The notes beneath the pieces were generated by a model. It was not told where the DNA came from, made no database searches, and saw only the letters and a program-made list of their open reading frames with translations. Source: Acanthochlamys bracteata (taxonomy: Eukaryota; Streptophyta; Magnoliopsida; Pandanales; Velloziaceae). Taken from it: a stretch of 64,000 nucleotides of DNA. The DNA is taken from assembly GCA_019914995.1 (NCBI GenBank), contig CM034138.1:2914001-2978000 (forward strand), written 5' to 3'. Each line of letters starts with the position of its first letter. The first letter of the stretch is position 1. Position numbers and translations under genes: made by a program. This document shows positions 3,006 to 55,718 of this stretch, one piece after another.

Positions 3006-4456
3006 AGATATTGATTCTGCTAAAAAAATTTCTCTTCGGTCCCCTGCCGCCGGATTTGGGAGACTGCATTACTCTGTCGAGAGTCCGATTGCAGCAGAAC
3101 TACTTGAGTGGTTCAATCCCCAGGGGATTACTCTATCTTCCCAATCTTCAATTGATCAAGTTGCAGAACAATTTTCTCACGGGAAAGATTTCAGAAGAGC
3201 CAGAGAATCGTCAGGCAAGGCTAGGGCAGTTGAACCTTTCAAACAACCGGCTTATCGGCCCGTTGCCAGATTCATTCGAAAACTTCTCGGCATTGCAGAT
3301 ACTTCTACTCAGTGAAAATGAGTTCACGGGGAAGATAACTGTGCAGCTTGGGCAACTCAGGCGTTTGCTGAAATTTGATTTGAGCTTTAACAACTTCACT
3401 GGTGGCATTCCGGAAGATTAGGTGATTGCTTGCTGCTTACATACTTGGATTTAAGTCATGACAATCTCTTCGGCGCGATTCCGGTCGGCTATCTCAAATC
3501 AGGATACTGAATTACTTTAATGTTTCATGGAATTCATTGAACCAGAGCATTCCGAAAGAGCTCGGAAGCATGAAGAGTCTAACATCTGTTGATTTCTCGC
3601 ACAACAACTTTTCCGGCAGGGTTCCGTCGATCGGGTAATTCGCAGTCTTCAATGTTTCCTCGTTTGTTGCCAATCCACAGCTTTGCGGTTTACCAACGAA
3701 TCCATGCAATCTTTCATTAACAATGCCTTCAATCTCTTACAACAAACATGGCCGGAAATCTCAAGTTTTAGGCAAATTCAAGCTTTCACCTTGCTCTGGT
3801 TCTGTTATTTTGCTCTGTAGTGTTTGTAGTGACTATTGCAGTCAAGAAGAAATCGATTATCCGACAAGCTTCAAAGCAATGGAAGCTCACGGCATCCCAA
3901 AAGCTAGATTTCACTAGCAAAGACATCGTCGAATGCTTGAACGTAAACTGCATCATAGGCAGAGGAGGTGCCGGAATTGTATACAAGGGAACAATGCGAA
4001 CTGGCGAACAAATCGCCGTGAAGAAACTCCTACGAATAAACAATGGTTCTTCGCATGACAGCGGCTTCTCTGCGGAGTTTCAAACTCTAGGCAAGATCCG
4101 GCACCGTAACATTGTCCTACTGCTAGCATTCTGCAGCAACAAGGAAACCAAACTTCTAGTCTACGAGTTCATGCCGAACGGCAGCGTAGGAGAAGTGCTC
4201 CACGGCAAGCGTGGAGCTCATCTCAGCTGGCCAACGAGACTGAAGATCGCCGTAGAAGCTGCAAGGGGATTGTGTTACTTGCACCATGACTATTACCCGC
4301 CGATACTTCATCGTGACGTAAAGCCTAACAACATTCTTCTCAACGGAGATCTCGAAGCTCACATCGCCGATTTTGGCCTCGTTAAGTTTCTGAGAGACGC
4401 TGGTTCGTCGGAGTGCATGTCTGCCATTGGCGGTTCTTGTGGCTACATTGCTCCAG

Positions 4457-5345
4457 GTAATTCATTAGTTATTGATTGATTCTGGTTTAAGATTGTTTAA
4501 CCAAAGAAACATATTGATAAATAAGAGATTTTGGAGACTTGAAAGTTGAAATAAATAAAGTGAAGCCAACATTCTTTTCAAAAGAAAGCAAGAACATGCA
4601 TACGCATAGCTTTTGCTTTTTCTTTTTCGTTTTAGTACTGGCATGTAGAGATTATGCAGTCCTTTCTTTTTCATTCATTCATCTAAGGATCCGTGCATTG
4701 GATTCTATGCAAATTCTTTCACCAGCACCAACAACACTTGAACAGAGTGCTGCAAAAGCAGTACCTAGTGCTTGTGATCGGCTACGAAGACTTAAGCATC
4801 CAGCTTGTTCAAGCCATGCTACTTGCCCTGGGTGCAAGTAGCCAGCAGCTGCAAGTGACCCGGTGCCTAGGCCACTTGGCATCCAAGTGGCATCCATTGA
4901 CATTGACCTGAGCAGGTCTTTACATCCGAATCAAACAGTTCAGACGTCTTATTCTATCCAGGACATAAGTTTGAGGAACTCCAGAGTCCATGCGAAGTCA
5001 AAACACCAAGTAAGAACAGATTGGCTTTGAGAGTCAGTTACCCGAGAGCCCACCAGTGGCATATCACTCGTAGAATTTCTTTGCTTGTTTAGTTACTTGT
5101 TTCAACAGCTTTATAGGTTCTATACAAGTAGTTATTAGATTAGGAAATTCTGGATTGCCTTGGAGTAGTAGCAAGGCTTATAAATCCACGGATAACACTT
5201 AAAACAAGCGTGGAGTATTATTTTCTGTTTTAGCTGTTGCTTCATCTAAGTTCTCATCTTGTTCACACTTTTCCCACCTTGTTGGTCTTCTACGATCCCT
5301 TTGATCCCTTTATTTATATCAGAGTTTGATGAAATTCTGTAATAG
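4457..5345 (+). other. Kinase-domain intron containing LTR-like sequence
   Basis: The donor follows CCAG at 4,456 and the acceptor is tag at 5,343-5,345, joining the codons for P-E-Y in frame. This matches the conserved intron position of CLV1/BAM kinases, so the 889-bp gap is an intron and not a lesion. From about 4,690 to 5,325 the composition shifts. It holds a 9-bp-arm hairpin at about 4,878 (gccacttgg-cat-ccaagtggc), a TATA-like ttataaatc near 5,180 and a terminal-looking ttatatca near 5,320, which together resemble a solo LTR. No target duplication was found, so that part is tentative. Confidence 0.55.
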
Positions 5346-18874: not shown

Positions 18875-20125
18875 TTAAAGAGATGTGAATCCTACTCTCT
18901 CATTTAACAAATCGTATTCCCACAAGTAACCCCTTTGCAAAATATTCCCAATAATATAACCAACACCACCACCATCACCATCAACTGCTCTAAAACCTAA
19001 ACACTTCCTGCCCTCCTCATTCTCATAGAACAAGTTTTCTTCATGAATTTCAAACCTTGTTTTCTCGCCAAACTCAATCGACATTCTCGGAAACCGCAGC
19101 ACATCAAACTCCGGCGCCGCCGTTGGATCGAAGCACAAATAGTCATCTGCATCTGTTGTCTCAACATTCATGTTATAGAGAAAAGTGAAATAAACTGCTT
19201 GAATTGCGTTGAACACAAGCCTTGGTACGTATGTGAACACTGTCCCTGTATCTAAAATAACACCACCACCACGTCCATGATCGGTTGTGTTAAGTTCCCA
19301 AACAGATTTTGGTATTTCCAGCATTACGCCGTCGATGAAAATACCGTAAACTTCTACGTAGTAGAATTCTGATTCTGTGTCTACTAATTTCGTATACTCC
19401 AATTTTCTGGTGCCAATAATATTATTACCAATTTTTCTGGCATCTCCAAACACCAGCATGCTCTGTGTTGTTGGATCAATGTCTCTTGGAAGAACAAACG
19501 AAAACTTCATGCCGAACTCCGGTACCACACGTCTCGTAAACGATCGCCTTGAAGGAGATAACCCTAGAATCCCATCAGCTTCGATGAGCTCGTCGTTCAG
19601 ATCACCTGAACTGCAACCAATCGTAACGTTATTTAGCTCCATCTTCGACCCTAAACCTTCATGAACAGTCAGTTTCTCATTAGCATAGAAACCTGAAGTA
19701 ATCGTTCCGTCCTCGTACTCAACAAAGTAATCACAGCCATTTTGCAATAGGCAGGACAACGGAACGAACGTTGACGAACGAGATGGGTCAAAAAATGTTC
19801 GACGGAGATTAGAATCTACTAATGCTTCTTCGTTATTACTACGACAGTAGACCCATGTTGCATCGCCGCCGGTATCGGCGATAAGGTTCAGAGCTTGCGG
19901 GGGATCGCCGATATTCAAATGCAATAATAAGAGTCCTGAATCTTCATCGCCGGTAATGGGGATCTTCAAAGGGAACGCAATAGCTTGAAGATCATCGTCA
20001 CTGTTTGGAGTGGTACTACTGGAAATTTCAAGTTGCTGCAAACTTCTCTGCTGTGATATTGGAAGAAAGAATAGAAGAAGAACGGTGAAAAAACAAAGGC
20101 GAATAACAAGAACTGGATTAATCAT
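18875..20125 (-). CDS. Nepenthesin-like A1 aspartic protease, secreted, intronless
   Basis: Endopeptidase of plant family A1, predicted to enter the secretory pathway and act in the apoplast or vacuole. A 416-aa single-exon frame starts with a strong signal peptide (about residues 1-26, Phe/Leu-rich) and a short propeptide-like stretch. The two catalytic motifs are DTGG at D84 and DTGT at D292. Other family marks are FDPSRSSTF (112-120), ADGILGLS (183-190) and the C-terminal GYIIGNILQRGYLWEYDL. The first motif has Gly where most plant members have Ser (DTGS), and the cysteines of the nepenthesin-type insert are fewer than usual. Length and frame are otherwise normal. A dead paralogue lies just downstream on the same strand, suggesting an old tandem duplication. 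Substrate unknown. Confidence 0.93.
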   Translation of the reverse strand: MINPVLVIRLCFFTVLLLFFLPISQQRSLQQLEISSSTTPNSDDDLQAIAFPLKIPITGDEDSGLLLLHLNIGDPPQALNLIADTGGDATWVYCRSNNEEALVDSNLRRTFFDPSRSSTFVPLSCLLQNGCDYFVEYEDGTITSGFYANEKLTVHEGLGSKMELNNVTIGCSSGDLNDELIEADGILGLSPSRRSFTRRVVPEFGMKFSFVLPRDIDPTTQSMLVFGDARKIGNNIIGTRKLEYTKLVDTESEFYYVEVYGIFIDGVMLEIPKSVWELNTTDHGRGGGVILDTGTVFTYVPRLVFNAIQAVYFTFLYNMNVETTDADDYLCFDPTAAPEFDVLRFPRMSIEFGEKTRFEIHEENLFYENEEGRKCLGFRAVDGDGGGVGYIIGNILQRGYLWEYDLLNERVGFTSL

Positions 20126-21948
20126 TATTTTGAACCAAAAATGAAAATGATTAAGAAATAAAAATTGGAACTGATCGATTAACGTTGCTATATATGATGA
20201 CTTTTAGTTTGAGCATTTCTTCCGGGAACACGACGAGTTCATGGCTTGGCCAAGTCATGCCTAGATCGTGATTTAGAAAAAAGTAAACCGTCTAGTTAGT
20301 TACTTATTATTTAGCTTAATTATTACGCTTGTGAACAGTTATGATTAATTAGCTACGTAGTTAAAAAACGTGAAAATGAGTTTTTTTTTTCTGGTATTGA
20401 AGTATATTTTAATATTTTGTGAAAAATAAGTTTTATTTTTTATTTTAATTTTTTAAACAAAAAACTAAAATGTAGTCCGTAAATCCAAAATTTATTTCTC
20501 TCTAATATCATTCTTTATTAATTATTTTTATAATCTTCAGGTCCTAACCTATAATGCAGCCCAAAAGAAAGTCATCGGCATTGGGACAGTTTGAGATTGA
20601 CTTTCACTCTATTCTAATAATTTTATTTTATTTTATATATTTTGATAATTTTTTATTATAATTTAAAATTTTATTTAACAATTTAATATAAAAACTTTTA
20701 TATTATAAAATTTTATTATTATTTAATTTTATATTGTATTTTAGAAAAATTTTATTTTAAAATATTTCTAAAATCGAAGCTGGCCTTTAATTTTCACTTC
20801 AAGAACAGTTCCTAAACTTAATTTGTATCCACCGTATTTTGATTAACTGGGGTGCATCTGTCTTAAATTTAGTTTTCTATTCATGCTTTTAAATAAAATT
20901 TTTCTAATTATATTTGAACGAAATGAAAAAATACTCTCCGTTTAATTTTAATTGTAAGATGAACTATTTATAAACTCAATTTTATTTTCATCTAATCATA
21001 CAACATACTTTAGATTGCATTCAAAAATAATTTTGTAGAAATATTAATTAAAAAGATATTATTTATTTAAAAAATTAATAATTTATTTTTAAAATACACT
21101 TTTCAAAAACGTAAAATCTCATAAAGCTATTTTCTATTAAAAAAGTTATACAACTATGTAGACATATTTATAAATTATTAATTTTTAATTTTAAAATTTA
21201 AAAACAAAACCACACACTACAATTATACGTGCGTTTAATAATTACATCGCCATAATTTAAATTTTTATTTCATTCTATAGATTTAAAATGGAAGTTTAAA
21301 ATATATTCATATGATGTAAAATTTAATTACGTACAATTTTTTACGTTCTAAAAGTTACACTAAATAATTTTTTTAGTTTTACTATAAATCTTAAATAAGT
21401 AAAACGAGTATGAGTTCCATACAATTATAAAATAGAAAATATGGATCCCATTTGTGCAACTGACATAAAAAGATTTTTGCCAAAACATTTTTTCGAGGAC
21501 TACTATATCAATATTAAAACTGTAGGTTTCTTATATTGCGAACAAACCCTCCACAACAGTCGTTCTTCACTTTCGTCACTGAACATATAGACTTCGCAGA
21601 TGTTTCAAATTTACGAAATTTTTATTTTTTTATTAAATTTAAAATTTTAATTAGTTCATTTATTTTAGATGTGTACGTTAAATTTAGATTTATATTTTAA
21701 ATTTATTGTACTTTATTTAATTTACTTTTTAAAATAAAGTTTTATTTTTAATTCACTTTAGAAAATAATTCAAAATATAAAAATTGAATTTTAGTTTTAG
21801 TTATTTTATAACTTCGTCAAAAATTAAGTAGGTGTATTTGAAACCTACGCTTTTCCAAATTGAACGAATAGACAGGAAAAGTTTCTTTCTGTTCAACAAC
21901 GAATCGATTTGCAAATGAATTTATCATTATGCAAATTATAATATAATT
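20126..21948. other. AT-rich intergenic region between protease gene and its dead paralogue
   Basis: About 1.8 kb, mostly A/T. The first 150 bp is likely promoter of the minus-strand protease. A block at about 20,600-20,790 has the same AT-rich texture as the MITE-like elements elsewhere, but its ends are unclear. No coding exon found. Confidence 0.5.
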
Positions 21949-22642: not shown

Positions 22643-22647
22643 GTACA
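22643..22647. repeat. Target-site duplication GTACA, left copy
   Basis: Directly precedes TGATAATATG, the start of LTR1. The partner is at 32,798-32,802, directly after the outer TTATCA of the inverted LTR3. Confidence 0.85.
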
Positions 22648-23924
22648 TGATAATATGTAATGATACATATTTATTATATCTTATTGTTATAATAAATATT
22701 AGATTTTTATTAAAATTCTATTCATAATATGGAATTAATTTAATTTATTTTATTTTGTGAAGTATAGGTGAATAAAGAAGCAAATTATTGAAGGAATAAA
22801 ATAAAAGAGCTAATCATAGGAGGAAATATCAAGCGGCGGTCCTCATTGATGCATTTGACCAATCAAATTTAAATAAAAAATTTAGCATCAAATATAGCAA
22901 CAAATTTATATACAAATCTAATTCGAAAATTCTGAAGATATTTTTTTCTAATTTTGTGGGAAAAAGTTCAACTATAAAAAAAAGATGAAAGGAGGGCCAA
23001 GAGAAACAAATAAGGAGCGAACGAAGAACCAACGAAGAGCCGACGAAAAATCTAGAGAGAGACGAACGGGAGACAGAAGGAAGATCAGATTAGAGATGAA
23101 AAATTATTCAGATTTGCTTTCTTCTCTTTTTCTCATGTTTTATTTTTCATACAATACTATTGTGTGTAATATTAATATGAGTGGCTAAATTCTCTAAACT
23201 GGAGTTAGGATGAAACCCTAATAAATTTAATTTATTAGATGAATATTATGTGATGTATGGATTGTTGATTTTATGTGAGTTGTTAATTCTTGTTTGAAAG
23301 GATATTTAGATGTTAAATTTGCATGCATTATTAGCATTGACTTTGATATCTAAATTATTATATTAATTGTGTTTGCAAGGACCAATCGGAGCGTAACTTA
23401 CGAATTACAGGATTAATAACTGTAATTAATATTTACTGGACCAAAGTGAATGTAACTACATGATTTATGATTTCGCAGAACCATCGTTAGTAATTTCTAA
23501 ACAAGGAGTTAGAATATCACTAGCGATAGGTGATTTTATACTGGATCAAAGTTAAAGTCATAATTAGAAATCGTATCTAAGAACTGGACCAAGGTGTTAG
23601 ATACAAGGTCTTCACAATCATCATAATCTATTATCATATTTATTTAAGGATTAAATTAGAGGCATTAGTGGTGGATTCTAAAACTCCAGTTGTTTGCATA
23701 TCTGTTTTTTCGATCCGTGCGTTACTTTTCGTTCTTAGCTCTCGTACCTTTCGATTCGCTTTTACAAACACAACTTTTGTTAGTTAAAAAACTTGAATTA
23801 GAGTTAAGAACAACCTCTGTGGAACAAACTCATTATCTGCTATACGGTAGACGACAACCGTGCACTTGCGGGATAGATTAGGATAGAATCACTGAGTTTT
23901 TCTTAGTTGGTTTTATCTACATCA
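22648..23924 (+). repeat. LTR1 (5' LTR) of the Athila-like element
   Basis: Begins TGATAATATG and ends near ...ctacatca at 23,924, six bases before the primer-binding site; about 1,277 bp. It differs from LTR2 and LTR3 at shared positions, for example tgataatAtg versus tgataatGtg, ttaGattt versus ttaAattt, and cagaaccatcg versus cagaacctaat. Confidence 0.88.
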
Positions 23925-23930
23925 AGTTTT

Positions 23931-23948
23931 TGGCGCCGTTGCCGAGGA
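23931..23948 (+). other. Primer-binding site, tRNA-Asp type
   Basis: tggcgccgttgccgagga matches the complement of the 3' end of plant tRNA-Asp (expected tggcgccgttgccgggga) with one mismatch. Position just inside LTR1 and tRNA choice are usual for Athila elements. Confidence 0.88.
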
Positions 23949-24065
23949 TTATTTTGTTTGACTTTGATTCAATCTAGCTTCATTTAGATTCATTGATATT
24001 TTGAATTTGTTTTATATTTAGCTTAGAGCATATTAGTTTGTTTTTCATTATAGTTACATTATTGC

Positions 24066-25035
24066 ATGATCACTCGCTCTCATAGTCAATCTTCATTTGA
24101 ATTTGATCCTAAGCTTGAAAGAGAAGTTATAAGAATTAGACGTGAGCGTAGAAATCATTTGAATATTAGAATTGAAGAGATGGTTGTTGCACCGAATGAA
24201 ACAATGGGAGATCTTGACATTCACACAATTTCTGTATCTCCATCTAGTATAGTTCTCCCTGATGCTGTTAGAAACTATGAGTTGAAAACTATTCATTTTA
24301 ATATGATGCCTTCTTTTTCATAGTTTGAACAATGAAGATCCTTTAACTCATATTCGAGAAATTTTCAATATGGTTTCTAACATGTCTTTGACAGATGGGG
24401 TTACTAAGGAATACCTTCAAATAAAAATCTTTCCGTACACTTTAAAAGATAGAGCAAATATATGGTTATAATCATTTAGATCTGATTCACTTACTACTTG
24501 GACTGAAATTTAAAACAGATTTTTAGAGAAATTCTTTTCAACTCAGAAAACTGATGCATTAAGAGATAAAATCATGCAATTCACTCAACAATCTGATGAG
24601 TCATTTTCTGAGGCATGGGAATGATTTAATAACTTGTTAATTCAATATCCCCACCATGGTTTGCCTATTTTGGTTTTGATGCGTATATTTTATAAGACAC
24701 TAACCGTTTCTAGCAAGGCTGCAGTGAATAATTATGCAGGTGGATCTATTCGAAATAAGACACCAGCTGAATGTCAAACGCTATTCGAAAATTTAGCTCT
24801 TGAAATGCAACATATAAATACACGAGAAAGATGAGGTTGAATTTATAAGGTGAATGATAATAACGATTATGCTTCTAAAGCGTAGGTGAATGCTATTAAT
24901 AACAAATTGGATGCTTTGCTAGCTATGAACGGAAAACTTTCAACACATGAGGTATGTGGCATTTGTGATTTATCTGGTCATTTTACTGTACATTGTCCAC
25001 AAGGAGTAGATTTTCTTGAGTTTGTACAAGAATAA
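24066..25035 (+). pseudogene. Gag of the Athila-like element, broken
   Basis: Nucleocapsid precursor. The frame opens with MITRSHSQSS at 24,066 and shifts near 24,320. Gag-core words follow (TTWTEI, FLEKFFSTQKTDALRDKI, ESFSEAWE, PHHGLP, AGGSIRNKTP), then a CCHC-like knuckle at about 24,955-25,000 (CGICDLSGHFTVHC). Stops in the core and the linker to protease are nearly all explainable as C-to-T changes: CGA to TGA in the AWE-RF motif, and CAA/CAG to TAA/TAG at about 25,033, 25,147, 25,217 and 25,231. Not translatable as one protein. Confidence 0.85.
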
Positions 25036-25611
25036 GCAAATATGGTAAGTTCGTATAACCGACATCCTAAGCATGACCCATATTCAAACACTTATAATCC
25101 TAGATGGAGGAATCATCACAACTTTTCGTGGAGCAATCAACAAAACTAACCTCCACCTCAACCAAAGCCATCGACTTCATTGGAGGATTTGGTAAGACAA
25201 TTAGCAATTGATCAATAAAAGCTTGAAGCTTAGGTAGGTCAAATTGCGCAAGCTTTGAGCCAAAAAGAGCATTGTAAGTTTCCTAGTCAACCTAACATCA
25301 ATCCACGAAATAATGAACAAGCAAAAGCCATTCAATTAAGATCAGGTAAGCTTATTAATAATGACGATAAAGTAGATATTTCTGATAAAAGTGTAGTTGT
25401 AGGTGATGAAAAGTAAGAGCTGCACAGATCTAGATTAAGAGAAAAAATGTAGGAATCATCGCCATCTGAGAATGATCAACACCATAGAAAGAAATTTGAT
25501 TATCATCCTTCCGGACTGCACAAGGCGGTTGATCGTTATACACCTCCTATATCATTTCCGGGCCGGTTAAAGCAAAATAAACAGAATAAGTAATTTCAAG
25601 ATATTTATGAT

Positions 25612-28600
25612 ATGTTAAGTAAAGTGTATATTAACCTTCCTTTGCTTAATGTGATTGAACAGATTCCAGCATATGAAAAATTCATTAAAAATTTGAAGGC
25701 TCACAAACTCAAATTTGCACCAAACGAAGGAGTTAGGTTGAACAAGAATGTAAGTACAGTGTTGAAAAGCGAGCTTCCACCTAAGTTTGATGATCCAGGT
25801 AGTTTTGATATTTCTATCACTATTGGTGCCAAAAGACTTGGACGTGCTATGTTGGACCTAGAGGCGAGCATCAACTTGATGCCATTTTCTATCTACAAAG
25901 AATTGGGTTTGGAAGGTATAAAAAAGACTACTGCATGTCTCGAGCTTGCTGATCATTCCATACGGTATTCCATAGGTATTATAGATGATATTTTAGTTCA
26001 AATTGACAAATTAATTCTTCCTGCAGATTTCATTATTTTAGACATGGAGGAAAATTGGAGAAGTGATCGTGAGATCCCTATTCTTCTTGGTCGTCCATTT
26101 ATGACTACTGCAGATACATATATCAACGTGAAAAAAGGCACCCTCATAATGACAGTATTGGGTGAAACCGTTAACTTCAAAGTGTTTGATGCTTTAAAAC
26201 ATCCTTCTATTTCTTCAGATTATTGTTTTTCTGTTGATTTATTAGATCCACTAATCGATTTTGTTGTTTTGTAGGAAAATACAAATATGATTTGGAAGCA
26301 TCGTTAATTCTAGATATGGTAGATAGTGATAATTCTAATAATATGCTCGCTGCGCTAAATGTGTTAAAACCAATTCAACCTAGTTATAGAGCCTCATTTG
26401 AACCTTTAGAGAGAATAAAATAAGGATATAACCATCTACTGTAGTCCCTTCTAAGTTAGAATTCAAACCATTGCCTGAACATTTTAAATATACATTCTTA
26501 GGTGATAATAAAAACCCTCCCAGTTATTATATCTTCAGATCTTACAGTTAGAGAAGATAAGAGCCTCATTAATATCCTAAAAGAGCATAGGACAGTAATA
26601 GTTTGGACAATAGCTGACATAAAAGGTATTAGTCCTGTGATGTGTATGCATAGAATTTTAATGGAGGATGATGCCAAACCTACTCGTGAAAGCCAAAAGA
26701 GATTAAATCCTAATATGAAAGAGATTGTTAGAGCTGAAATTTTAAAACTGCTTGATGTAGGAGTAATCTATCCAATCTCTAATAGTAGATGAGTTAATCC
26801 TGTACAAGTAGTACCTAAGAAATTTAGGATAACAGTAGTTAAAAATAAGAATAATGAATTGATCCCTACAAGAACAACTACGGGATGACGTGTTTGTATT
26901 GATTATAGGAAGTTAATTCTGCAACAAGAAAAGATTATTTTCCTTTATCTTTCATTGATCAAATACTTGAACGTTTAGCTGGACACTCACATTATTGTTT
27001 TCTTGATGGTTTTTCAGGTTATAATCAAATTCCAATTGCTCCGGAATACCAAGAGAAGACAACTTTCACTTGTCCATTTGGTACTTTCGTCTATAGGAGG
27101 ATGCCCTTTGGTTTGTGCAATGCTCCAATAACATTTCAAAGATGTATGATGGCTATATTTTCTGATATGGTAGAGAGAATTATCGAGGTATTTATGGATG
27201 ATTTTTAAGTTTTTGGATCTTCTTTTGATGGATGCCTTGACAATTTGAAATTGGTTTTGTTTAGATGCGAAGAAACAAACTTGGTTTTGAATTGGAAAAA
27301 ATGTCATTTCATGGTTAAACAAGGAATTGTTTTAGGACATGTGGTTTCTAGTAAAAGAATTGATGTGGATAGAGCAAAAATTGAAATTATAAAAAATCTA
27401 GCTCCCCCTACTTCAGTAAAAGGCATTAGAAGTTTCTTAGGCCATGTTGGTTTTTATAGAAGATTTATTAAGAATTTTTCTAAAATAACTAGGCATCTAT
27501 GTGATTTATTGGCTAAGGATGCTTTGTTTGATTTTGATAAAAATTGTTTGGATGCATTCAACAATTTGAAACATGTCTTAACTACTGCTCTCATAATCAC
27601 TGCTCCCGACTGAAATTTGCCATTTGAATTGATATGTGATGCTTCAGATTATGCTATTGGTGTAGTGCTTGGTCACCGAATTGATAAACTACCACATGTT
27701 ATATATTATGCTAGCAAGACTTGGAATGATGCACAACTTAATTAATCAACAACAGAAAAAAAGTTGCTTGCTGTGGTGTTTGCTTTAGAAAAATTTCGTC
27801 AATATATTTTTGGTTCTAAAGTTATTGTATTTACTGACCATGCTGCTTTTAAGTATTTGTTGACAAAAAAAAATGCTAAGCCTAGGTTGATTCGATGAAT
27901 ATTATTGCTACAAGAATTTGACTTGAAGATTAAAGATAAGAAAGGAAGCAAGAATGTGGTTGAATCGATGGATATTATTGCTACAAGAGTTTGACTTAAA
28001 GATTAAAGATAAGAAAGAAAGCGAGAATGTGGTAGCAGACCATCTTTGTCGTATCGTGATTAAAGATCAAAAAGAATGAGATGACATGCCTCTAAATGAT
28101 TCTTTTCCAGATGAACAATATTTTTCCATTACTTATAAAGAACCTTGGTATGCTGATTTTGTAAATTATCTTGCTAGTGGTGTAATGAGAAATAATTTAT
28201 CTTTTCAGAAAAAGAAGCGATTTCTGTCTATGGTGAAGTACTATTATTGGGATGATCCTTATTTGTTTAAGCACTGTCCGGACCAAATCATTAGAAGATG
28301 CGTTCCTGAGGATGAACAAGAAAGCATTCTAAGGCATAGCTATGAGTTAGCATGTAGAGGTCATTTTGGTGCTAAGCAAACAGCCCATAAAGTCCTTCAA
28401 TCAGGTTTTTTTTTGACCCACTTTATTTAAAAATGCATTTAACTTTTGTACTAAGTGTGACAAATGTCAAAGAGTAGGAAATATCAGCAGGAGGAACATG
28501 ATGCCTTTGACTAATATTTTGGTCGTAGAACTCTTTAATGTTTGGGGTATAAACTTCATGGGTCTATTCCCTTCCTCCTTTGGGTATTCTTATATTCTTG

Positions 28601-29422
28601 TTGCTGTTAATTATGCATCTAAATGGGTAGAGATTCAAGCTACAAAAGCTAATGATCATAAGATTGTCCTCAAAATTTTGAAGAATATGATTTTCACTAA
28701 ATTTGGAACTCCTAGAGCAATCATTAGTGATGGTGGTAAACATTTTTGCAATAAATCTTTTGATGCTTTGCTAAGAAAATATGACATAACTCATAAGGAG
28801 CCACTCCATATCACCCTCAAACCTCAGGACAAGTAGAAATTAGCAATAGGGAAGTTAAGAATATTTTGGAGAAAACTGTGAACACCACAAGAAAGAATTT
28901 GGCAATAATACTTAGTGATGTTTTGTGGGCTTACAGGACAGCATATAAAACACCTATAAGGATGAGTCCATACGTATTGTATTTGAAAAAGCATGTCATT
29001 TACCTATGGAACTTGAACATAATGCATATTGGGCTATAAAGAAGCTAAATTTTGACATGAATGATGCAGGGAATGAAAGAAAGTTGCAACTCAATAAATT
29101 GGAAGAAATTCGTAATGAAGCTTATGAGAATGCAAAGATTTATAAGGAACGCACAAAGTCATATCATGACAAGTCAATTCAGCGAAAAGAGTTTACTCTT
29201 GGTATGAAAGTTTTATTATTTAACTCACGGTTGAAACTCTTTTCAGAAAAGCTGAAGTCAAAATGGCATGGACCATATAAAATAGTTGAAATCTTTCCAC
29301 ATGGAGCTATAGAAATCAAGGATCTCAAATCTGGAGCACAATTTAAGGTCAATGGGCATCGCTTGAAGCCATACTTGGAGGCCACCCTCGCAATCCAAAC
29401 TGAACCAACCCTTCCTATTTGA
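25612..29422 (+). pseudogene. Pol of the Athila-like element: protease, RT, RNase H, integrase, broken
   Basis: Protease at 25,612-26,274 has LDLEASINLMP, where the active-site word is normally DLGAS, and ILLGRPF. RT at about 26,500-27,240 has DYRKL, FLDGFSGYNQIPIAPE, FGLCNAP and FMDDF. The connection follows at 27,245-27,613 (GHVVSSKRIDVDRAKIE, GFYRRFIKNFS). RNase H at about 27,620-28,040 has ICDASDYAIG and FTDHAA and is broken by a 73-bp duplication. Integrase at 28,086-29,422 has a zinc-binding region (HSYELACRGHFG, CTKCDKCQ), GINFMG in place of GIDFMG, ISDGG, and a C-terminal SH3-like part (KWHGPYKI). Stops include three or four TGG-to-TGA changes (about 26,790, 26,886, 27,611 and 27,897). 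The element cannot supply its own enzymes. Confidence 0.9.
27892..28033 (+). repeat. 73-bp tandem duplication in the RNase H region
   Basis: tcgatgaatattattgctac at 27,892 recurs as tcgatggatattattgctac at 27,965, and the following bases match with a few substitutions up to 28,033. The period of 73 is not a multiple of three, so it also shifts frame. A private change of this copy. Confidence 0.88.
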
Positions 29423-30690
29423 CAAACTTCTCGTCTGGCTGAAGACGTTAAATTTAGCGCTTATTGGGAGGCAACCCAAGGCCTTTCTCTCTAGTAGCAA
29501 TTGAATTTTGTAGGATTTTGTTTTCGTTTGATTTGATATGTTTATTATTTTTGAAGGATTCGGAAAGAAAGAAGAATCACTATAATGCAAAGATTTATTG
29601 CTGTGATGCAGTTGATGGAGAAGTTAATCAAAGGTTCAGGCCATTTAAAAATCAAGAGAGTTTTCCTACACATCAATTTTTATCCCTTTGCTTTATACAT
29701 TGTTCATTTTTATCTTTCACCATTGAGGACAATGTCGAATTCAAGCTTGGGGGGGAGATAGAAAATTATGCATAAACATCGATTGATAGTCTATCATCCA
29801 TTTTTCAATAATGAATTTGAACACTCTTTCTAATATGGCTTTTGAAACTAGAATCCTTATTGAGTTTGTTCGTATAATATTCTTATTAACTAAGCCTACA
29901 TTCTTCTTGATATAGTACTGTATATAATTAAGGTGATAAAATCTTATTATTTTAGACAATGCAATTGAATACATTTTACAGAGGATTTTGATTTCATAGT
30001 CTATAACGAGTGATGACATCTACCACCATACAATGTAAGGCTTAGAGTTGATCTAAGTATTTTTTGTGTTGTCTTGTTTTGTTTTTAATTTTTAGGGATA
30101 ATTGAGATACAGAGTTATAAAGAGTCTTTGAAAAGCACAAGGATAAAGAAATAGCATTTGTATTAAAAAAAAAAAAAAAGAAGCTCGAGTATACATTGTA
30201 AAGTGTAATGATGAAGAAAGAGCAATTAAATAAATAAAAGAGCCGCAAAATTGGGCCAATGCTTGAGTATACCTTATTCTTCTTGAAGTTAAATGTGCTC
30301 TTGGTTACTTTGTATTTTGACGACTTCCTAAATTTGATTTCATTCATTACAACATTTAAAATAACTTGGTGAATCTCTAAAAATTGTATGTGCAGTGGGG
30401 AGATGATTTCTAAACATACTTATGGACATTGAATTCTAAACTTCCTTCTAGTATGTTGCATATATTTTGGAATGCGAGGTTGAGTTGATTTGATTTCTAT
30501 ATAGTGCAATTAAGAGAGTTTGTAAGTGATGTTAATTTGTTTATTACGTTTACATTATTCTTTAAAGATTTTGGTTGATCAAGCTACACGAAGAAATTAA
30601 AAATTATGAGAATAAGTTGTGAAGAATGATATATATAACTTTCTTATCATTTTGCTCGAGGACTAGCAAAAAATTAAGTTTGGTAGTATT
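29423..30690 (+). other. Non-coding spacer of the Athila-like element with two polypurine-like sites
   Basis: After integrase there is no env-like frame. A G-rich purine tract at 29,743-29,759 (aagcttgggggggagat) follows an attgaggacaatg motif. The tract expected directly before LTR2 is degenerate (aagtttggtagtatt, about 30,676-30,690) and follows ctcgaggactagc. An intact PPT-like tract 0.95 kb upstream and an eroded one at the LTR edge are both visible. Confidence 0.6.
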
Positions 30691-31840
30691 TGATAATGTG
30701 TAATGATACATATTTATTATATCTTATTGTTATAATAAATATTAAATTTTTATTAAAATTCTATTCATAATATGAATTAATTTATTTTATTTTATTTTGT
30801 GAAGTATAGGTGAATAAAGAAGTAAATTATTGAAGGAATAAAATAAAAGAGCTAATCATGGGAAGAAATATCAAGCGGCGGTCCTCATTGATGCATTTGA
30901 CCAATCAAATCTAAATCAAAGATTTAGCATCAAATCTAGCATCAAATATAGCAACAAATATAGCAACAAATCTATATACAAATCTAATCCGAAGATCCTG
31001 AAGATATTTTTTTCTAAATTTGTGGGAGAAAGTTCAACTATAAAAAGGGGTGAATAGAAGGCCAAGAGAAACAAATAAGGAGCGAACGAAAAGCCAACGA
31101 AGAGCCGATGGAAAATCTAGAGAGAGACGAACGAGAGACAGAAGGAAGATCAGATTAGAGACGAAAAATTATTCAGATTTGCTTTCTTCTCTTTTTCTCA
31201 TGTTTTATTTTTCATACAATACTATTGTGTGTAATATTAATATAAGTGGCTAAATTCTCTAAACTGGAGTTAGGATGAAACCCTAATAAATTTAATTTAT
31301 TAGATGAATATTATGTGATGTATGGATTGTTGGTTTTATGTGAGTTGTTAAATCTCGTTTGAGAGGATGTTTAGATGTTAAATTTACATGCATGATTAGC
31401 ATTGAGTTTGATATCTAAATTATTATATTAATTTTGTTTGCGATGACCAATTGGAATATAATTTACGAATTACAGGATTAATAACTATAGTTAATATTTA
31501 CTGGACCAAAGTGAATGTAACTACATGATTTATGATTTCGCAGAACCTAATAGCATTGTTAGTAATTTCTAAACAAGGAGTTAGAATATCACTAGCGATA
31601 GGTGATTTTATACTAGACCAAAGTTAAAATCATAATTAGAAATCGTATCTAATAACTGGACCAAGGTGTTAGGTACAAAGTCTTCACAATCATCATAATC
31701 TATTATCATATTTATTTAAAGATTAAATTAGAGGCATTAGTGATGGATTCTAAAACTCCAGTTGTTTGCATACCTATTTTTTCGATGCGTGCATTACTTT
31801 TCGTTCTTAGCTCTCGTACACTTTTGATTCGCTTTTACAA
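30691..31840 (+). repeat. LTR2 (3' LTR) of the Athila-like element, lacking its 3' end
   Basis: Begins tgataatgtg and aligns with LTR1 to ...gcttttacaa (LTR1 position 23,767). The last ~157 bp of the LTR, including the expected ...ca end, are missing. At 31,841 the sequence jumps into an inverted LTR copy. Confidence 0.88.
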
Positions 31841-32797
31841 TCTAACACCTTGCTTCAGTTATTAGATACATTTCTAATTATGACTTTAACTTTGGTCCAG
31901 TGTAAAATCACCTATCGCTAGTGATATTCTAACTCCTTATTTAGAAATTACTAACAATGCATTAGGTTCTGCGAAATCATAAATCATGTAGTTACATTCA
32001 CTTTGGTTCAGTAAATATTAACTACAGTTATTAATCCTATAATTCGTAAATTATGCTCCGATTGGTCCTCGCAAACACAATTAATATAATAATTTAGATA
32101 TCAAACTCAATGCTAATCATGCATGCAAATTTAACATCTAAATATCCTTTCAAACAAGATTTAACAACTCAAATAAAGTCAACAATCCATACATCACATA
32201 ATATTCAAGAAATAAATTAAATTTATTAGGGTTTCATCCTAGCTCCAGTTTAGAGAATTTAGCCACTCATATTAATACTACACACAATAGTATTATATGA
32301 AAAATAAAACATGAGAAAAAAAGAAGAAAACAAATCTGAATAATTTTTTGTCTCTAATCTGATCTTCCTTTTGTCTCCCGTTCGTCTCTCTCTAGGTTTT
32401 CTGTCGGCTCTTCGTTTGCTCATTATTTGTTTCTCTTGGCTCTCCATTCACCCCTTTTTATAGTTGAACTCTCTCCCACAAAATTAGAAAAAAATATCTT
32501 CAGGATCTTCGGATTAGATTTGAGATAGATTTGTTGCTATATTTGATGTTAGATTTGATGCTAAATTTTTGATTTAGATTTGATTGGTCAAATGCATCAA
32601 TGAGGACAACCGCTTGATATTTCCTCCAATAATTAGCTCTTTTATTTTATTCCTTCAATAATTTACTTCTTTATTCACCTATACTTCACAAAATAAAATA
32701 AAATAAATTAATTCATATTATGAATAGAATTTTAATAAAAATTTAATATTTATTATAACAATAAGATATAATAAATATATATCATTACACATTATCA
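31841..32797 (-). repeat. LTR3, inverted LTR copy fused to LTR2
   Basis: Read on the minus strand from 32,797 it begins tgataatgtgtaatgat and follows the LTR to ...aaggtgttaga, equivalent to LTR2 position ~31,672. With LTR2 it forms a hairpin-like inverted repeat: arms 30,691-31,672 and 31,841-32,797, loop of ~168 bp. LTR3 shares with LTR2, against LTR1, the states tgataatGtg, ttaAattt, gaagTaaatt and cagaacctaat. Its outer end touches the target duplication. Confidence 0.9.
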
Positions 32798-33425
32798 GTA
32801 CATTTACAAATAATGACATAATATATAAAAATATTGTGATAATGAACTAAATGAATATAAAAACTGTTAATGATATAGTTATCTGAACTATAAATATGAA
32901 CATTGTTAATTTATTACATTAAGATGAAATATAAAAAAGTAATATATTTAATTTTCAATAATTTTAATAAATACTATCTAAAATTTTAAAAGTATTAAAT
33001 AAATTTATAAAAAATTATCAAAAAGTAAGATCTTACGATCTTACTTAAATTTCCGATTTTACGATACTATACAAGCAAAACGATCTTACATAAAATTTCG
33101 ATCCAGACAATTTTGGTAACACCTACAATGCTCTGCTCAGTTCTTCAATGACGGGCTTATAAGCTGGTTCGACTAAGAAAGTTAAACTCGGTTTTGAATC
33201 AAGAACGACCCCATTTTCGTTGGGGCCGGCTAAGCTGATCAACCGAGCAGAAGCTGAAACTTGGCTGTAGCCGACAACGCCATCTACAATCGATGTTAGT
33301 TTGACTGCAACCGATGATGAGCTTCTGGTGTTCGCCGTTGGTTAACGTCACTGTTGCCGACTCGTTCGCGAAGAACCCTAATGTTTTCGAACATGATGCA
33401 TACCTATGGAAACGCGAAGTTCTAA

Positions 33426-46823: not shown

Positions 46824-49362
46824 TCAGAGATCATTCTCAGACATTTCCATCAGCAATGAATACTTGATCTTGAGAAAAATCTTGCCACCTTCGACGCAGA
46901 GCTTTGCACCAGTCACTACCCAATGCCCCGGAAAATCATCAGGACCCCTTATTAACTCGGTAGTGTCAACGAATTTGGACAACTTTGGAACTCTGATAGG
47001 CACTGGTGGCTTGCCAGGATAAACTGCAGAATTAACTTCTATGTTGGGGTTTGGCACCTTTGATTGAACGCTACTGAAACGGCCACTGAACAAACCAGAA
47101 ATCGGTCCTGACTTTTTGGAGATGCTTCTTGGTCCATCCCATTCTGACCTTCGTATTTTCATTGATGCAACATTTGAGAAACCAAGCCTGAGAAACAACA
47201 CTCTTTTCGCACCGATGCCTCTCACTTCCAGCCAAGCCTTTGTAACTATAGAAGCAGAATCATCAATCTGGGCACCGTTATATTGAACTTCTTCTGTGCA
47301 CACATGAGAGAGTAGTGCCCGTTTTACAGGCTCATAGTAGGCATGCTGGTTTGAGCAAGTGTTTTTGCTGCTGCATTCGGTTTCATCAGATAGTTGGAAG
47401 TTGCTTGGGATTTCTGAAAGGTGTTGAAGATGAACACCTAGACAATTGTTCTTCTTTCCTTCCAAGAACAAACGGATTCCTGTAACAGGACGGTTGCTGG
47501 AATTGACCTAATGACAAACAACCTCCTATTAGTGTATTGTGTATCAAGGAAATTACAAGAAGGCTTTCTGAATCTATAGCAGTCTATCTATATTTAAATG
47601 CAGAGCATATAGTGATGAATACCTTTGCAGTGTTGACATACAGCTTAGGACCCAAAAATGTGAATTGGAGTGCCGGTAAGATCTGTCTGTTTTTTTTAGG
47701 GCCGATCGGGATTTCGCCAAACAAAGGAGCCCATTGATGCGATACTTGGAATTCGAGGAAATATCGAAGATCTTCCATTTGTGGTTTATCTGGGTGATGC
47801 CAAGATAGAATAGTATGAACACTTCATGTTCAAGAAGAATGTTGAACAAGAAGAAGTCACGAAATCTGGACTAAACTGTGGAGCACACTTACAGCGAAGA
47901 TACAGATTCACTGCATGAGTTAACAATCCACAGCCTCTAACCCCATCCAGTAGAGAAGCTATAGGCACAAAAGACATGGATATCACATTCGGGGCATTTG
48001 GAACAGTTGAGAGCCATTCGCTATGGCGTTGTTTGCTATTTATTCCTCCTCTTCTAACATGAACGGTCACTATGTCCTGCAAAAGATTTGGCATTATAAA
48101 ACAAATTAAAACATGATCCTCAAGTACCGAAACACATTGGATGCAGTTGGCATCTACAGAAGATACTAACATCCTTCTTCAATTGGGATACGACGGATGA
48201 CATTGTATGCCTTAATGATGCTGTAATATGCTCAGCATCCACGAACCTATTGTTCTGAAAAAAATTTACAAAATTTTAAATATAGATCAGCTTGAAGATA
48301 TCAGCATAAAGTGGAGTATAAGGAAACGGATTTAACACACAAACTGGAGTATAAGGAGCTAGCGCCACTTCAAAATGTCACGATGATCAATCGAAATGTA
48401 CCTTCTGCTTTCTCGGAATTCTACCCTTAAAGGCATCTGAAAAACTCTCATCAGCTAGTCCTTTCAATAGCATCTGGACTCCAGCATGATCAAGTGATGA
48501 GTCTTGCTGTTGCTTGACATAAATCACATCTTTACCTCCCATCTTCACTCCGACTACAATGTGGGTGCCGTACTTTTCAATGAACCTGAAAAAACAGCAT
48601 GATCTTCATTTCATGATCAAAATCTATTCATCATAAGATGGTCACAAGGCCTTACTCTGCCAATGCGGCGGGATCCCAAGATGAAGGTACATCTTGCTTT
48701 ACTTCTTCAGGTAGTTGTATGTTGCATCTTTCCATCTCTATTGTATACAATGTAATGAACCTTCCGTCGAAGGAGAGGCTTTTCGTCATAGATGCCTCTC
48801 TCTTCCATAATCCTCGAAAATCAAACATGGCGTTGAAGATGCCAGAGGGAATAATACCAGACAAAGAGATCTCCTGATTGAACTGCTCTGACATCTGCAA
48901 GCAATAGGTGTTTTCTTGTATAAACTCTAACCATGACTTAAAATTTTGAAAAATTGCATCTTTATAACAACCTGCCATAAACAATTAACAGAAAGAAAGA
49001 AAGAAAGCTTCCAGAAAAAAAAAAAAAAAAAAATTAGAATCATCTTGATCAAGTCGCTTGTCTTGTTTAAAACAGAATCAAATATTAATAACCTGGTTGA
49101 AAGAAAGAACACCAGAGCGGAACCGAGTGCTTTCGCCCTTGTCGCAACGAACAGCAGCAGGAATTCCAGGAAGAACAACACCACCGGGAACCAAAAGATC
49201 ATGAACTGCTGTAGAATTATTCCCACATATCTCAACAATTCTCCCAACAGGCTTCACTGATGTGAATTTGACATCACAAGTAATATCGAACCCGCAACCA
49301 AGGGCAGCCACCGCTTGCTCCGCAGCTGCTTGTGGGCCCATCTCGCCGCTCCGATCATCCAT
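46824..49362 (-). CDS. NSL1: MACPF-domain protein of the CAD1/NSL1 family, 7 exons
   Basis: Plant MACPF proteins restrain salicylate-dependent cell death; loss of NSL1 or CAD1 gives spontaneous lesions. Exons: 49,093-49,362; 48,656-48,894; 48,402-48,585; 48,171-48,254; 47,893-48,076; 47,623-47,789; 46,824-47,507. All gt/ag and in frame, 603 aa, close to the ~612 of Arabidopsis NSL1. The MACPF signature is at about 175-187 (YGTHIVVGVKMGG). N-terminal CDKGESTRFRSGVLSFNQ, HSEWLSTVPNAPNVISM, SFVPIASLLDGV, FTFLGPKLYVNT and the C-terminal block (HLQHLSEIP, IEVNSAVYPGKPPVP, PGHWVVTGAKLCVEGGKI) match the plant family. NSL1 is favoured over CAD1 by VQYNGA and SIVTKAWLEV. No signal peptide is seen. Start choice: first ATG of the exon; a second ATG lies seven codons in. 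Confidence 0.93.
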
Positions 49363-49914: not shown

Positions 49915-49919
49915 TAAGA
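49915..49919. repeat. Target-site duplication TAAGA, left copy
   Basis: Directly precedes TGATGCAGGAG of the left LTR; the partner is at 55,719-55,723 after ...gttgtatca. Confidence 0.88.
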
Positions 49920-50468
49920 TGATGCAGGAGCCAAAAAAAATGTGGAAAAAGGAAATGAGTTTGGTGCTGAATCGGCACAACCAGGAGCTGAAGTTAGAAG
50001 ATTGTCTCACCGGCATTGAAGATCGGCGATCAACTACCGGACTTGTCCAGGATGCCGGCAAGAAGGAGCATCCGGGAGGCATCTGGCCTCTGTGCTTGGC
50101 TGCTGCCAGCAAGACCACCACGCCAAGGACACCACTTAAATGGTGTCCTTGGCGCCAAAATAAGGCACCTAGGACACTTGATGGTGTCCTGGGTGCGGCA
50201 TCCAGATTCAGGCAGAGAGTTTGAATCTGGCAATTGAGGAAATTGAGTCCAATAAAAACTCTTAGTCTTGTTGGTTGAGTCCAATAGGGACTCTTATGTT
50301 ATAGTTGAAGTAATTAGGAGTTCTAATGTCATTGTAGTTTGAATAAATGTAAAACTCTTTGAGTTATAAATAAAGAGGCATAGCCTAAGTAAGAGGCATG
50401 CAAGTTCATTCATAAATTTTAGTTTTAACTAGTTCTTAAATTTTAGTTTAGCTATTCAAGTTGTATCA
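49920..50468 (+). repeat. 5' LTR of the chromovirus-like element
   Basis: 549 bp from TGATGCAGGAG to ttgtatca. Contains two adjacent hairpins: 14-bp perfect arms at 50,121-50,134 and 50,141-50,154, and 13-bp arms at 50,165-50,177 and 50,184-50,196 with one G-U type mismatch. A TATA box (tataaata) lies at 50,365-50,372. The hairpins lie upstream of the TATA box, so in U3, and would be at the 3' end of the element RNA. Confidence 0.92.
50365..50372 (+). promoter_or_regulatory. TATA box of the 5' LTR
   Basis: tataaata, about 100 bp before the LTR end, conserved at 55,625-55,632 in the other LTR. Placement is normal for a plant LTR promoter. Confidence 0.7.
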
Positions 50469-50471
50469 ACT

Positions 50472-50489
50472 TGGCATCAGAGCCCAGGT
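50472..50489 (+). other. Primer-binding site, initiator tRNA-Met type
   Basis: tggcatcagagcccaggt, three bases after the LTR end; compare the usual plant tRNA-iMet site tggtatcagagc. One mismatch in the first twelve bases. Confidence 0.75.
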
Positions 50490-50491
50490 TC

Positions 50492-52144
50492 ATGAAGAAC
50501 AAGGGAGCCGCTGCCCCAGGGTTCCCAAGGTCCCTAGAAGCATCATCCACCATCACCGCAAGAACACCATCACCACCATCAGCAAGATCTGGAAGAATGG
50601 AAGGGGAATCTAACGTTTGGGAGAAGCTGGACACTCTAACAGAGAGGATCAACCAGATTGACACTCTTACATAAAAAATCAATAAGCTCACAGAAGTAGT
50701 CTTTGAGATGCATCGAGGTAAGGTATACGATCAAACCAACCTTACTCCTTCTGAAAATCAACGACTCAACAAAATACCCCATGAAAACCATTCTTTTGCT
50801 GCCCACTCACTAGATCATGAGCACCAAGGGAATCCACTGTCAACTAGTAATCACTTAACCCCAAATAATCAAGAATTCCACTGGCCACAAACACCCCCTG
50901 CACCATCTAAACAACTCCACTACCAGCAAGGACAAGGGACTATGTTCAACCCAAACCTTCCAAGCAGCCTCAGAAAATTTTCTAGTCAAGATGTTTACCC
51001 AACAACTAACCCGAGAAACCAGGAAAGCCATCACAAAAACCAAGCTCCCCATAGAAACAGCCAGCAACAAAATTTCTTCCAAGAACAAACACAAGATAGC
51101 TACCACAGGAATACCCAAACTTATAACCATGAACCCTTTTACCAAATCCCAAGGGAAAGGCACAAGTTTCCCTACTTCAATGGATCCGAACCAAATGAAT
51201 GGATCTATTCGGCAGAAAAGTATTTCAAATTTTATCATGTCAACCCATGGGATTGAGTGAGAATAGCTACAATGTATATGCAAGAGGAAGCAAATAGATG
51301 GTATCAAAGTTTTGAGCATGATCAACCACAACACACGTCGGAGGAACTTAAGGATGCACTCTTGATGCGATTTGGTCCAATGGCGTTTGGAAATCCTAGC
51401 TTCTCACTCCAACAACTACGGCAAACTGGGTCCTTAAGTGAATACCAAGCAGCCTTCGAAGAGCTTAGGACCCGGCTTCCACCCACTACGGAAAAAGATT
51501 TGATAGGCAGATTTTGTGAATGTTTGTCAAAGAGACTAGCTATGGATGTTATGACTTCCAGACCAGAAGACATACAGACAGCATACCTACTAGCTCCAAT
51601 GTACGAACACAAAATTTCTGCAGAATCTACTTGGCAGCGTAGCCGAACCAGTTCAGGCACTTCTGTTTCATCTGGCAGGACTGCAGTCAGTCCATTCCAG
51701 CAGCAAAGGGCAACTTCAGTTACAGCTAGCAAGACTTCAGTCAGCTCAAATAGTGCCATTATGCAAAATTTTCAGCCCAAGGCTTCATCCTTATCAAAAG
51801 CAAACATCAATAGTAGGCGCACAAAAGGATTGTACTTCTACTGCGATGATAAATACGAGCGTGGCCACCGGTGCACTACCCAATTATATTCCATCTCTGT
51901 CAATGCATTTAAGGAAGAAGAAGAAGAGGATGAGGCTGCAACCGAAGGAGAAGAGCCATTCGAGGATGCAACCCTATCCCTTAACGCCATGAACGGATTG
52001 ATAGGTTCTCAAACTCTTCGCATTATCGGCAAAATAAAGAAACAAGAGGTCTTTGTCTTGATTGACTTAGGGAGCATACATAATTTTATATCCGATCATT
52101 TAGCTAAACACTTGCGACTAGCTTCTGAAATAGTTCGACCCTAA
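50492..52144 (+). pseudogene. Gag and start of protease of the chromovirus-like element
   Basis: A single frame starting MKNKGAAAPGF is interrupted by two stops (50,672-50,674 and 51,254-51,256). The capsid part is recognisable (KFPYFNGSEPNEWIYSAEKY, ANRWYQSFEHD, LMRFGP, GSLSEYQAAFEELRTR). The zinc knuckle reads YFYCDDKYERGHRC, and its first Cys appears replaced by Tyr compared with the usual C-x2-C-x4-H-x4-C. The protease starts near 52,030 with VLIDLGSIHNFI, where the usual active-site word is DSGS or DSGA. A frameshift follows at about 52,144. Confidence 0.85.
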
Positions 52145-55100: not shown

Positions 55101-55165
55101 AGAACTTCATCAATGATCTTGCTCTACTGGACTTCGAGGACGAAGTCGATTTTCAAGGGGAGGGG
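52145..55165 (+). pseudogene. Pol of the chromovirus-like element
   Basis: One frame from ~52,150 to 54,264, interrupted by stops at 52,669, 53,104 and 53,299, then frameshifted. The rest of the protease has DLVLGIQWLESLG. The RT catalytic box reads FFYDILVYS where FFDDILIYS is expected, so one catalytic Asp is lost. RNase H at about 53,389-53,860 has VETDVSSKGIG, STYEKELMTLV, TDHLSLKYLL and VADALSRKPD. The integrase zinc region at 54,060-54,200 is shifted out of frame; the core starts at 54,272 (MDFVEGPS, IVSDRDSLF, AYHPQTDGQSE in another frame) and the C-terminal part is at 54,760-55,160. The purine tract aaggggagggga lies before LTR2 at 55,155-55,166. Confidence 0.88.
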
Positions 55166-55167
55166 AA

Positions 55168-55718
55168 TGATGCAGGAGCCAAGAAAAATGTGAAAAAAGG
55201 AAATGAGTTTGGTGCTGAATCAGCACAACCAGGAGCTGAAGTTAGAAGATTGTCTCACCGGCATCGAAGGCCGGCGATCAACTGCCGGACTTGTCCAGAA
55301 TGCCGGCAAGAAGGAGCATCCGGGAGGCGTCTGGCCTCTGTGCTTGGCTGCTGCCTGGGTAGCAGCCAGCAAGACCACCACGCCAAGGACACCACTTAAA
55401 TGGTGTCCTTGGAGCCAAAATAAGGCACCTAGGACACTTGATGGTGTCCTGGGTGCGGCATCCAGATTCAGGCAGAGAGCTTGAATCTGACAACTGAGAA
55501 AATTGAGTCCAATAAAAACTCTTAGTCTTATTGGTTGAGTCCAATAGGAATTCTTATGTTATAGTTGAAATAATTAGAAATTCTAATGTCGTTGTAGTTT
55601 GAATAAATGTAAAACTCTTTGAGTTATAAATAAAGAGGCATAGAGGCATGCAAGTTCATTCATAAATTTTAGTTTTAACTAGTTCTTAAATTTTAGTTTA
55701 GCTATTCAAGTTGTATCA
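55168..55718 (+). repeat. 3' LTR of the chromovirus-like element
   Basis: 551 bp from TGATGCAGGAG to ttgtatca. Compared with the 5' LTR it has an extra ctgggtagcag-like insert near 55,356 and lacks cctaagtaag near 55,643. The first hairpin arm has lost its terminal pairing (ggcg became ggag). Confidence 0.92.

Follow-up and report, generated by a model that had tools for sequence, protein, structure and literature searches.

How can a long terminal repeat (LTR) retrotransposon lie between the two copies of an exact target-site duplication when its right-hand end is not the end that integrase normally uses there? The question is raised by an Athila-like (Ty3/gypsy) element in a 64,000-nucleotide stretch of the Acanthochlamys bracteata genome (assembly GCA_019914995.1, contig CM034138.1, positions 2,914,001 to 2,978,000; hereafter the window). 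The element carries three LTRs, the last of them inverted, and both of its termini are LTR starts, i.e. ends of the unique 3' region (U3), the right terminus not being an end of the unique 5' region (U5). We find that this window element (C13) entered host DNA as one piece in a single insertion and that a second insertion of the family, on C16, likewise ends in an inverted LTR within an exact 5-bp duplication; both probably originated before integration, during plus-strand synthesis.

All parts of the anatomy proposed in an earlier note on this DNA, i.e. three LTRs, a truncated LTR2, an inverted LTR3 ending at U3 and a pair of GTACA motifs, are present in the sequence (Table 1). LTR2 breaks off at LTR1 position 1121, whereas LTR3, which is 956 bp long and lacks ~324 bp on its U5 side, ends at LTR2 position 982, giving a loop of 169 bp between the arms; the insertion ends on the right with U3 base 1 of LTR3. 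Gap-free identity is 94.4% (1056/1119) for LTR1-LTR2, 94.4% (902/956) for LTR2-LTR3 and 93.8% (880/938) for LTR1-LTR3. The element resembles a canonical Athila-lineage Ty3/gypsy insertion in its primer-binding site (PBS, of the TGGCGCC... type), its polypurine tract, its LTR of ~1.3 kb, the Ty3/gypsy gene order with a reverse transcriptase (RT) piece ahead of an integrase piece, and a 5-bp target duplication at both termini, but differs from it in ending on the right in the U3 of an inverted LTR and not in U5. We take the PBS to be of the Athila / tRNA-Asp type; the name Athila-like rests on the PBS and the LTR length.

Table 1. Coordinates of the window element and of the related C16 insertion (PPT, polypurine tract)
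Feature	Position	Strand	Remarks
Whole insertion, Athila-like (Ty3/gypsy)	22,643-32,802		GTACA at each side
Left target-site duplication GTACA	22643..22647	.	Sequence and paralogous sites
LTR1, complete, 1277 bp	22648..23924	+	TGATAAT...CTACATCA
Leader and PBS	23925..23948	+	Leader AGTTTT 23925-23930 (6 nt); PBS TGGCGCCGTTGCCGAGGA 23931-23948
Reverse transcriptase piece, RVT_1	26909..27208	+	PF00078, E 5.9e-16; frame broken
Integrase core piece, rve	28417..28836	+	PF00665, E 1.7e-11; frame broken
Internal polypurine tract, PPT2	29743..29755	+	AAGCTTGGGGGGG; putative priming role
3' polypurine tract, PPT1, with TATT spacer	30668..30690	+	Ahead of LTR2
LTR2, U3 to U5	30691..~31840	+	Without ~156 bp of the U5 end
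Junction of LTR2 and inverted LTR3	31840..31841	.	At most 1 nt (A) common to both sides
LTR3, inverted and truncated	~31841..32797	-	LTR1 positions ~953 to 1; clade with LTR1 and LTR2
Right target-site duplication GTACA	32798..32802	.	Sequence and paralogous sites
Related insertion	C16:3991181-3997169		TGCTA at both sides; inverted LTR ending at U3

The insertion splits a dispersed repeat, one half of which makes up the 411 bp directly left of the element and the other the ~315 bp directly right of it, and each flank has at least 39 non-self copies among the matches listed. Alignment of 20 fetched copies against the joined flanks reveals an uninterrupted joint in 20/20 paralogous sites, with exactly one GTACA in 13 and a one- or two-base variant of it in the remaining 7. 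As these sites are uninterrupted and single-copy, the two GTACA motifs represent a genuine 5-bp duplication made in one insertion event. The match is explained neither by chance nor by a favoured target, since identical outer 5-mers occur in only 7 of 4950 pairs drawn from the 100 U3 starts of the family classed as host-flanked (among the matches listed; see below); GTACA, which reads outward as TGTAC at the right end, is seen in that set only at the window element. The earlier note had proposed a single integration that used two U3 termini and duplicated 5 bp; this is borne out, as is its view that LTR3 is not a separate solo LTR: LTR3 is incomplete, lacks a duplication of its own, pairs through its outer 5-mer with LTR1 and is about as old as the insertion.

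Of the further inverted terminal LTRs bounded by 5-bp duplications for which the earlier note suggested a search, a family screen found one related case, that on C16. Its flanks overlap on the joined site by exactly TGCTA (query 1-200 and 196-400), and the joint is spanned by 2 of the 25 non-self matches, a neighbouring copy at C16:3997410 (86%) and C9:6263964 (69%), with the remaining 23 ending short of it; TGCTA is a true 5-bp duplication. The insertion runs from internal position 5821 to the 3' tract, through a complete LTR, the PBS and internal sequence up to position 2408, and then, after ~9 filler bases, into an inverted unit made up of a AGTTTTTG leader and a complete LTR that ends at U3. 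Its two LTRs share 95.1% identity and are sisters in the LTR tree (100/97). As the inverted unit spans U3 and U5 as far as AGTTTTTG, at the U5/PBS edge, it matches a discrete strong-stop DNA; with internal position 2408 and the filler joined to this complete unit, the C16 insertion is not a snap-back onto its own LTR.

The right terminus is U3 position 1 in both insertions. The left terminus of the C16 insertion, position 5821, is the first base 3' of the internal tract of the window copy, its counterpart in the window being base 29756. There are 66 family matches at the internal tract motif, one of them a chance match; among the 65 left, the C16 insertion is the only host-flanked one, with TGCTA where the others carry a purine-rich run. 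The tract at C1:10326059 is degenerate, but lies 7.07 kb inside an element with its 5' LTR at C1:10318990, and C6:10069138, considered as a second tract-ended insertion, was rejected as a chance match without element sequence.

When did LTR3 arise? In a tree of 47 LTRs over their first ~960 bp, for which the bootstrap had not fully settled so that support values are rough, LTR1, LTR2 and LTR3 form one clade (100/96) against 44 other rows, with tips of 0.030, 0.026 and 0.034; grouping of LTR2 with LTR3 within it has a support of 50/4.7. The long-branched C12b_3, present in the tree, was left out of the site-state counts, which use 43 other rows. Over 938 sites, 28 unite LTR2 and LTR3 against LTR1, 30 unite LTR1 and LTR2 against LTR3, and 23 unite LTR1 and LTR3 against LTR2; polarised derived sites number 6 for LTR2 and LTR3, 5 for LTR1 and LTR2, and 2 for LTR1 and LTR3, with 4 of the 6 polarised LTR2-LTR3 states also found in at least 7 of the 43 other rows. 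A late copy of LTR2 would have left many derived sites common to LTR2 and LTR3, and few were found; this, together with the single clade and its similar branches, indicates that LTR3 is about as old as the insertion, or dates from early in the insertion's life. The insertion age itself is roughly 2.3-5.0 million years at assumed rates of 7e-9 and 1.3e-8. States common to LTR2 and LTR3 against LTR1, of which the earlier note had counted at least four, therefore exist but denote no special kinship in view of the 30 and 23 conflicting sites, and its proposal that LTR3 was copied from LTR2 or its direct template is not supported. The phylogeny of the three LTRs that it called for yields the clade without a supported LTR2-LTR3 pair.

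The explanation that we favour, with a probability of about 0.68, is that a growing plus strand, before integration, either became joined to a displaced plus-strand strong-stop DNA or copied it, and that integrase then used two ends set by polypurine tracts. Each insertion has both its ends at positions where such tracts would set the start of plus-strand DNA, the 3' tract twice in the window element, and the internal tract together with the 3' tract in the C16 insertion. On this proposal the 3' polypurine tract would prime more than once, such that displaced plus-strand strong-stop DNAs remain in the particle; the growing plus strand would copy the right LTR in the window element, or the initial 2.4 kb of the internal region in the C16 insertion, and would then be joined to, or jump onto, a strong-stop DNA and run back to the 5' end of that DNA. 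The product would have a U3 end on the right instead of a U5 end, and integrase would insert both ends 5 bp apart. In the window element both termini would be normal U3 attachment sites, whereas priming at the internal tract would account for the left end of the C16 insertion, provided that the transferred strong-stop started there. The joining step may be either a polymerase jump or end joining. For Ty3, the 3' tract is reported to prime repeatedly, the second strong-stop to end at the U5 end and dead-end strong-stops to accumulate in particles (PMC5371799). A discrete polypurine-primed plus-strand piece would explain why synthesis stopped exactly at U3 position 1. The snap-back during reverse transcription proposed in the earlier note holds in part: integration of a two-U3 cDNA (complementary DNA) is borne out, but simple folding back of an unbroken plus strand would not halt at precisely that position.

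Several observations weigh against the favoured explanation. There is little homology at the junctions, 1 nt in the window element and ~9 filler nt in the C16 insertion, so that end joining fits as well as a polymerase jump; there are two cases only, one of them with U3 at both ends; and the left end of the C16 insertion lacks TG, so that integrase would have used a poor end. The sequence states of the LTRs also conflict. At alignment columns 775-777, LTR1 and LTR2 have AGA and LTR3 has TCT, with T in 43/43 other rows at columns 775 and 777, and 30 C and 12 T (of 42) at 776. Columns 825 and 1135 have states common to LTR2 and LTR3 only, column 842 a state common to LTR1 and LTR3, and private states found in more than 15% of other rows number 10/28 for LTR1, 3/23 for LTR2 and 10/30 for LTR3. 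Given these conflicting shared and private states, the template of LTR3 may have been a sister cDNA, or later gene conversion may have mixed the copies. As a separate observation, AGA at columns 775-777 extends a local inverted repeat (read by eye), resembling quasi-palindrome correction.

Among other origins, the joining of two broken double-stranded cDNAs tail to tail by host end joining, each giving its U3 end to a dimer that was then integrated, is unlikely, though it likewise yields two U3 ends with one duplication and fits junctions with 1 nt of homology or filler. Two random breaks would, however, have to leave LTR sequence alone in the second molecule, and the second piece of the C16 insertion ends at the U5/PBS edge, a natural strong-stop end that is unexpected for a random break. 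Fold-back repair occurs in eukaryotes, and a canonical insertion might later have suffered a break in LTR2 that was repaired by fold-back synthesis to the U3 start and rejoined at ATCA, a 4-bp motif at the right end that inverted U3 and U5 ends have in common. We consider this very unlikely: such a history predicts LTR2 and LTR3 as sisters on a well-marked branch, contrary to the support and site counts given above, the rejoining must strike the exact LTR edge, and this coincidence would have to recur in the C16 insertion, together with a left end at a polypurine tract. Autointegration, whose products join an intact LTR end to an internal site, was rejected, as neither partner at 31840/31841 is an LTR end, both being internal LTR positions (1121 and 953).

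Two further possibilities have little to commend them. Fusions of opposite elements are common in plant genomes, and two such elements might have been fused by deletion with a chance match of GTACA, or the arrangement might be an assembly error. The empty paralogous sites, the rarity of identical 5-mers in the family, the flanks as two halves of one repeat copy and the single clade of the three LTRs make the fusion scarcely credible, and the same goes for the assembly error, since a read artefact would give nearly identical arms and these arms diverge by 5.6%. It is equally improbable that integrase inserted only the LTR1 end and that host enzymes inserted the other after copying viral DNA, even though host polymerases are able to copy either viral DNA strand onto a free 3' end (PMC5041404). 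According to the same source, one-ended events usually leave much longer duplications, or deletions, whereas the repeats of the window element and the C16 insertion are exactly 5 bp, and the uninterrupted single-copy empty sites show no large host duplication, deletion or rearrangement at the second end.

Comparison with known systems brings out partial likenesses. Recycling of strong-stop DNA in Ty3 and Ty1 provides free plus-strand strong-stop DNAs that reach as far as the U5 edge, but the yeast strong-stops are dead ends or undergo normal transfer, and the section drawn on here does not mention inverted fusion into an integrated copy (PMC5371799). Aberrant one-ended integration of human immunodeficiency virus (HIV) and avian sarcoma-leukosis virus (ASLV) also joins an abnormal viral end to the host, usually with large host duplications, deletions or inversions (PMC5041404) in contrast to the exact 5 bp of the window element. 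In HIV-1 proviruses with asymmetric LTRs, a strand-transfer error in reverse transcription leaves the integrated provirus with part of its 3' LTR deleted, although the deletions described in the passages drawn on here are on the U3 side, with no inverted terminal LTR or second U3 end (PMC9278108). Autointegration products are reportedly alike in that viral DNA is joined to itself (PMC2644782). Integration during infection is stated in a review to require integrase action on both the U3 and the U5 end (PMC11054761).

In the open-licence literature we found no natural insertion that has U3 at both ends or whose left end is set by a tract, the search being non-exhaustive and hence weak evidence of absence, and nothing relevant on a second such tract in Athila elements. 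In vitro, integrases are able to pair two ends of the same kind. Oh et al. (2006) reportedly dealt with alternate polypurine tracts in Rous sarcoma virus, and Oh et al. (2008) are said to have found that CA is not required at the U3 end.

The insertion type with an inverted terminal LTR is rare in the family. The screen drew on 153 U3 starts, the union of 100 of the 184 matches to one pattern and all 74 matches to a second; the reversed-pattern control for the former gave 8 matches and another pattern counted 161, weakly matching U3 starts being partly unseen and more diverged ones invisible to such patterns. By a simple rule, a polypurine-like motif precedes 53 of the 153, which were classed as tract-flanked, the other 100 being classed as host-flanked, although 4 of these end in TATT and may be tract-flanked. 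Oppositely directed U3 starts at most 20 kb apart occur among the 153 at three places only, all convergent: the window element, the C16 insertion and a pair on C19 (4501041+/4510310-). The last was rejected, as a normal element end is there followed, 6.7 kb on, by a solo LTR that is complete, inverted and bounded by a duplication of its own, ATACC.

Examination covered 86 of the 100 host-flanked starts, the other 14 being weak or ambiguous. Sixty further host-flanked LTRs comprise 24 normal 5' LTRs, 25 solo LTRs in which the outer 5-mer recurs at the inner end or close to it (accepted between 8 bases ahead of the aligned LTR end and 14 past it), 9 solo LTRs that lack an exact repeat of the 5-mer, and 2 that are truncated or unclear; among 22 others, 19 run into internal sequence like 5' LTRs and 3 resemble solo LTRs. 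No further fold-back insertion was found among these 82 other host-flanked LTRs. An inverted LTR beside a diverged LTR at C17:6141815 (L103) was also rejected, the script having called it a solo LTR, with the 5-mer a few bases off the LTR end.

The natural two-U3 insertion with its true 5-bp duplication and its tract-ended sibling on C16 indicate that the rule of one U3 and one U5 end bends in a living genome. Both constitute a sequence record of reverse-transcription intermediates, i.e. displaced strong-stop DNA and internal priming, in a plant element that is difficult to approach by biochemistry. Their signature, an inverted terminal LTR with the same outer 5-mer and an exact U3 edge, can be searched for in any genome; LTR finders, which look for a direct LTR at each end, would overlook it. 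It is possible, if somewhat less likely than not, that there is a recurrent class of tract-to-tract integration, in which any tract-made plus-strand 5' end (3' or internal) can serve integrase, U5 is dispensable and RT can copy one plus strand onto another. If so, the inverted terminal LTRs would naturally form long hairpins, which could set off silencing of the family by small RNAs.

Some other members of the family have unusual features of their own. The 3' LTR at C7:4863134-4864439 (+), belonging to an element that starts at C7:4852921, apparently has ~10 extra leader bases (AGTTTTTGTC) past its U5 end, before the duplication ATACA, as if the U5 end was untrimmed before insertion. In the solo LTR at C2:10447189 (L079), the outer 11 bases AGTTAGGTCTA recur directly after the inner-end ATCA, exceeding the usual 5 bp, although part may be leader. 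At C17:2223912 (L088) a complete LTR is followed by CTCGC (outer 5-mer CTCGT) and, ~140 bp on, by internal sequence from position 260, suggesting a nested or rearranged copy; at C15:4042155 (-) (L069) the internal sequence lacks the stretch between ~54 and 1664, a deletion that closely follows the PBS.

Elsewhere in the window, a second LTR element at 49919-55718 has the ordinary arrangement of direct LTRs (~550 bp, pieces 94-100% alike, starts ~5.25 kb apart) with gag-pol-like open reading frames at 50675-54264. Three further open reading frames presumably encode a receptor-like kinase (3772-4479, +), an aspartic protease (18875-20203, -) and a DUF1336/EDR2-like protein (46824-47507, -), to judge by resemblance.

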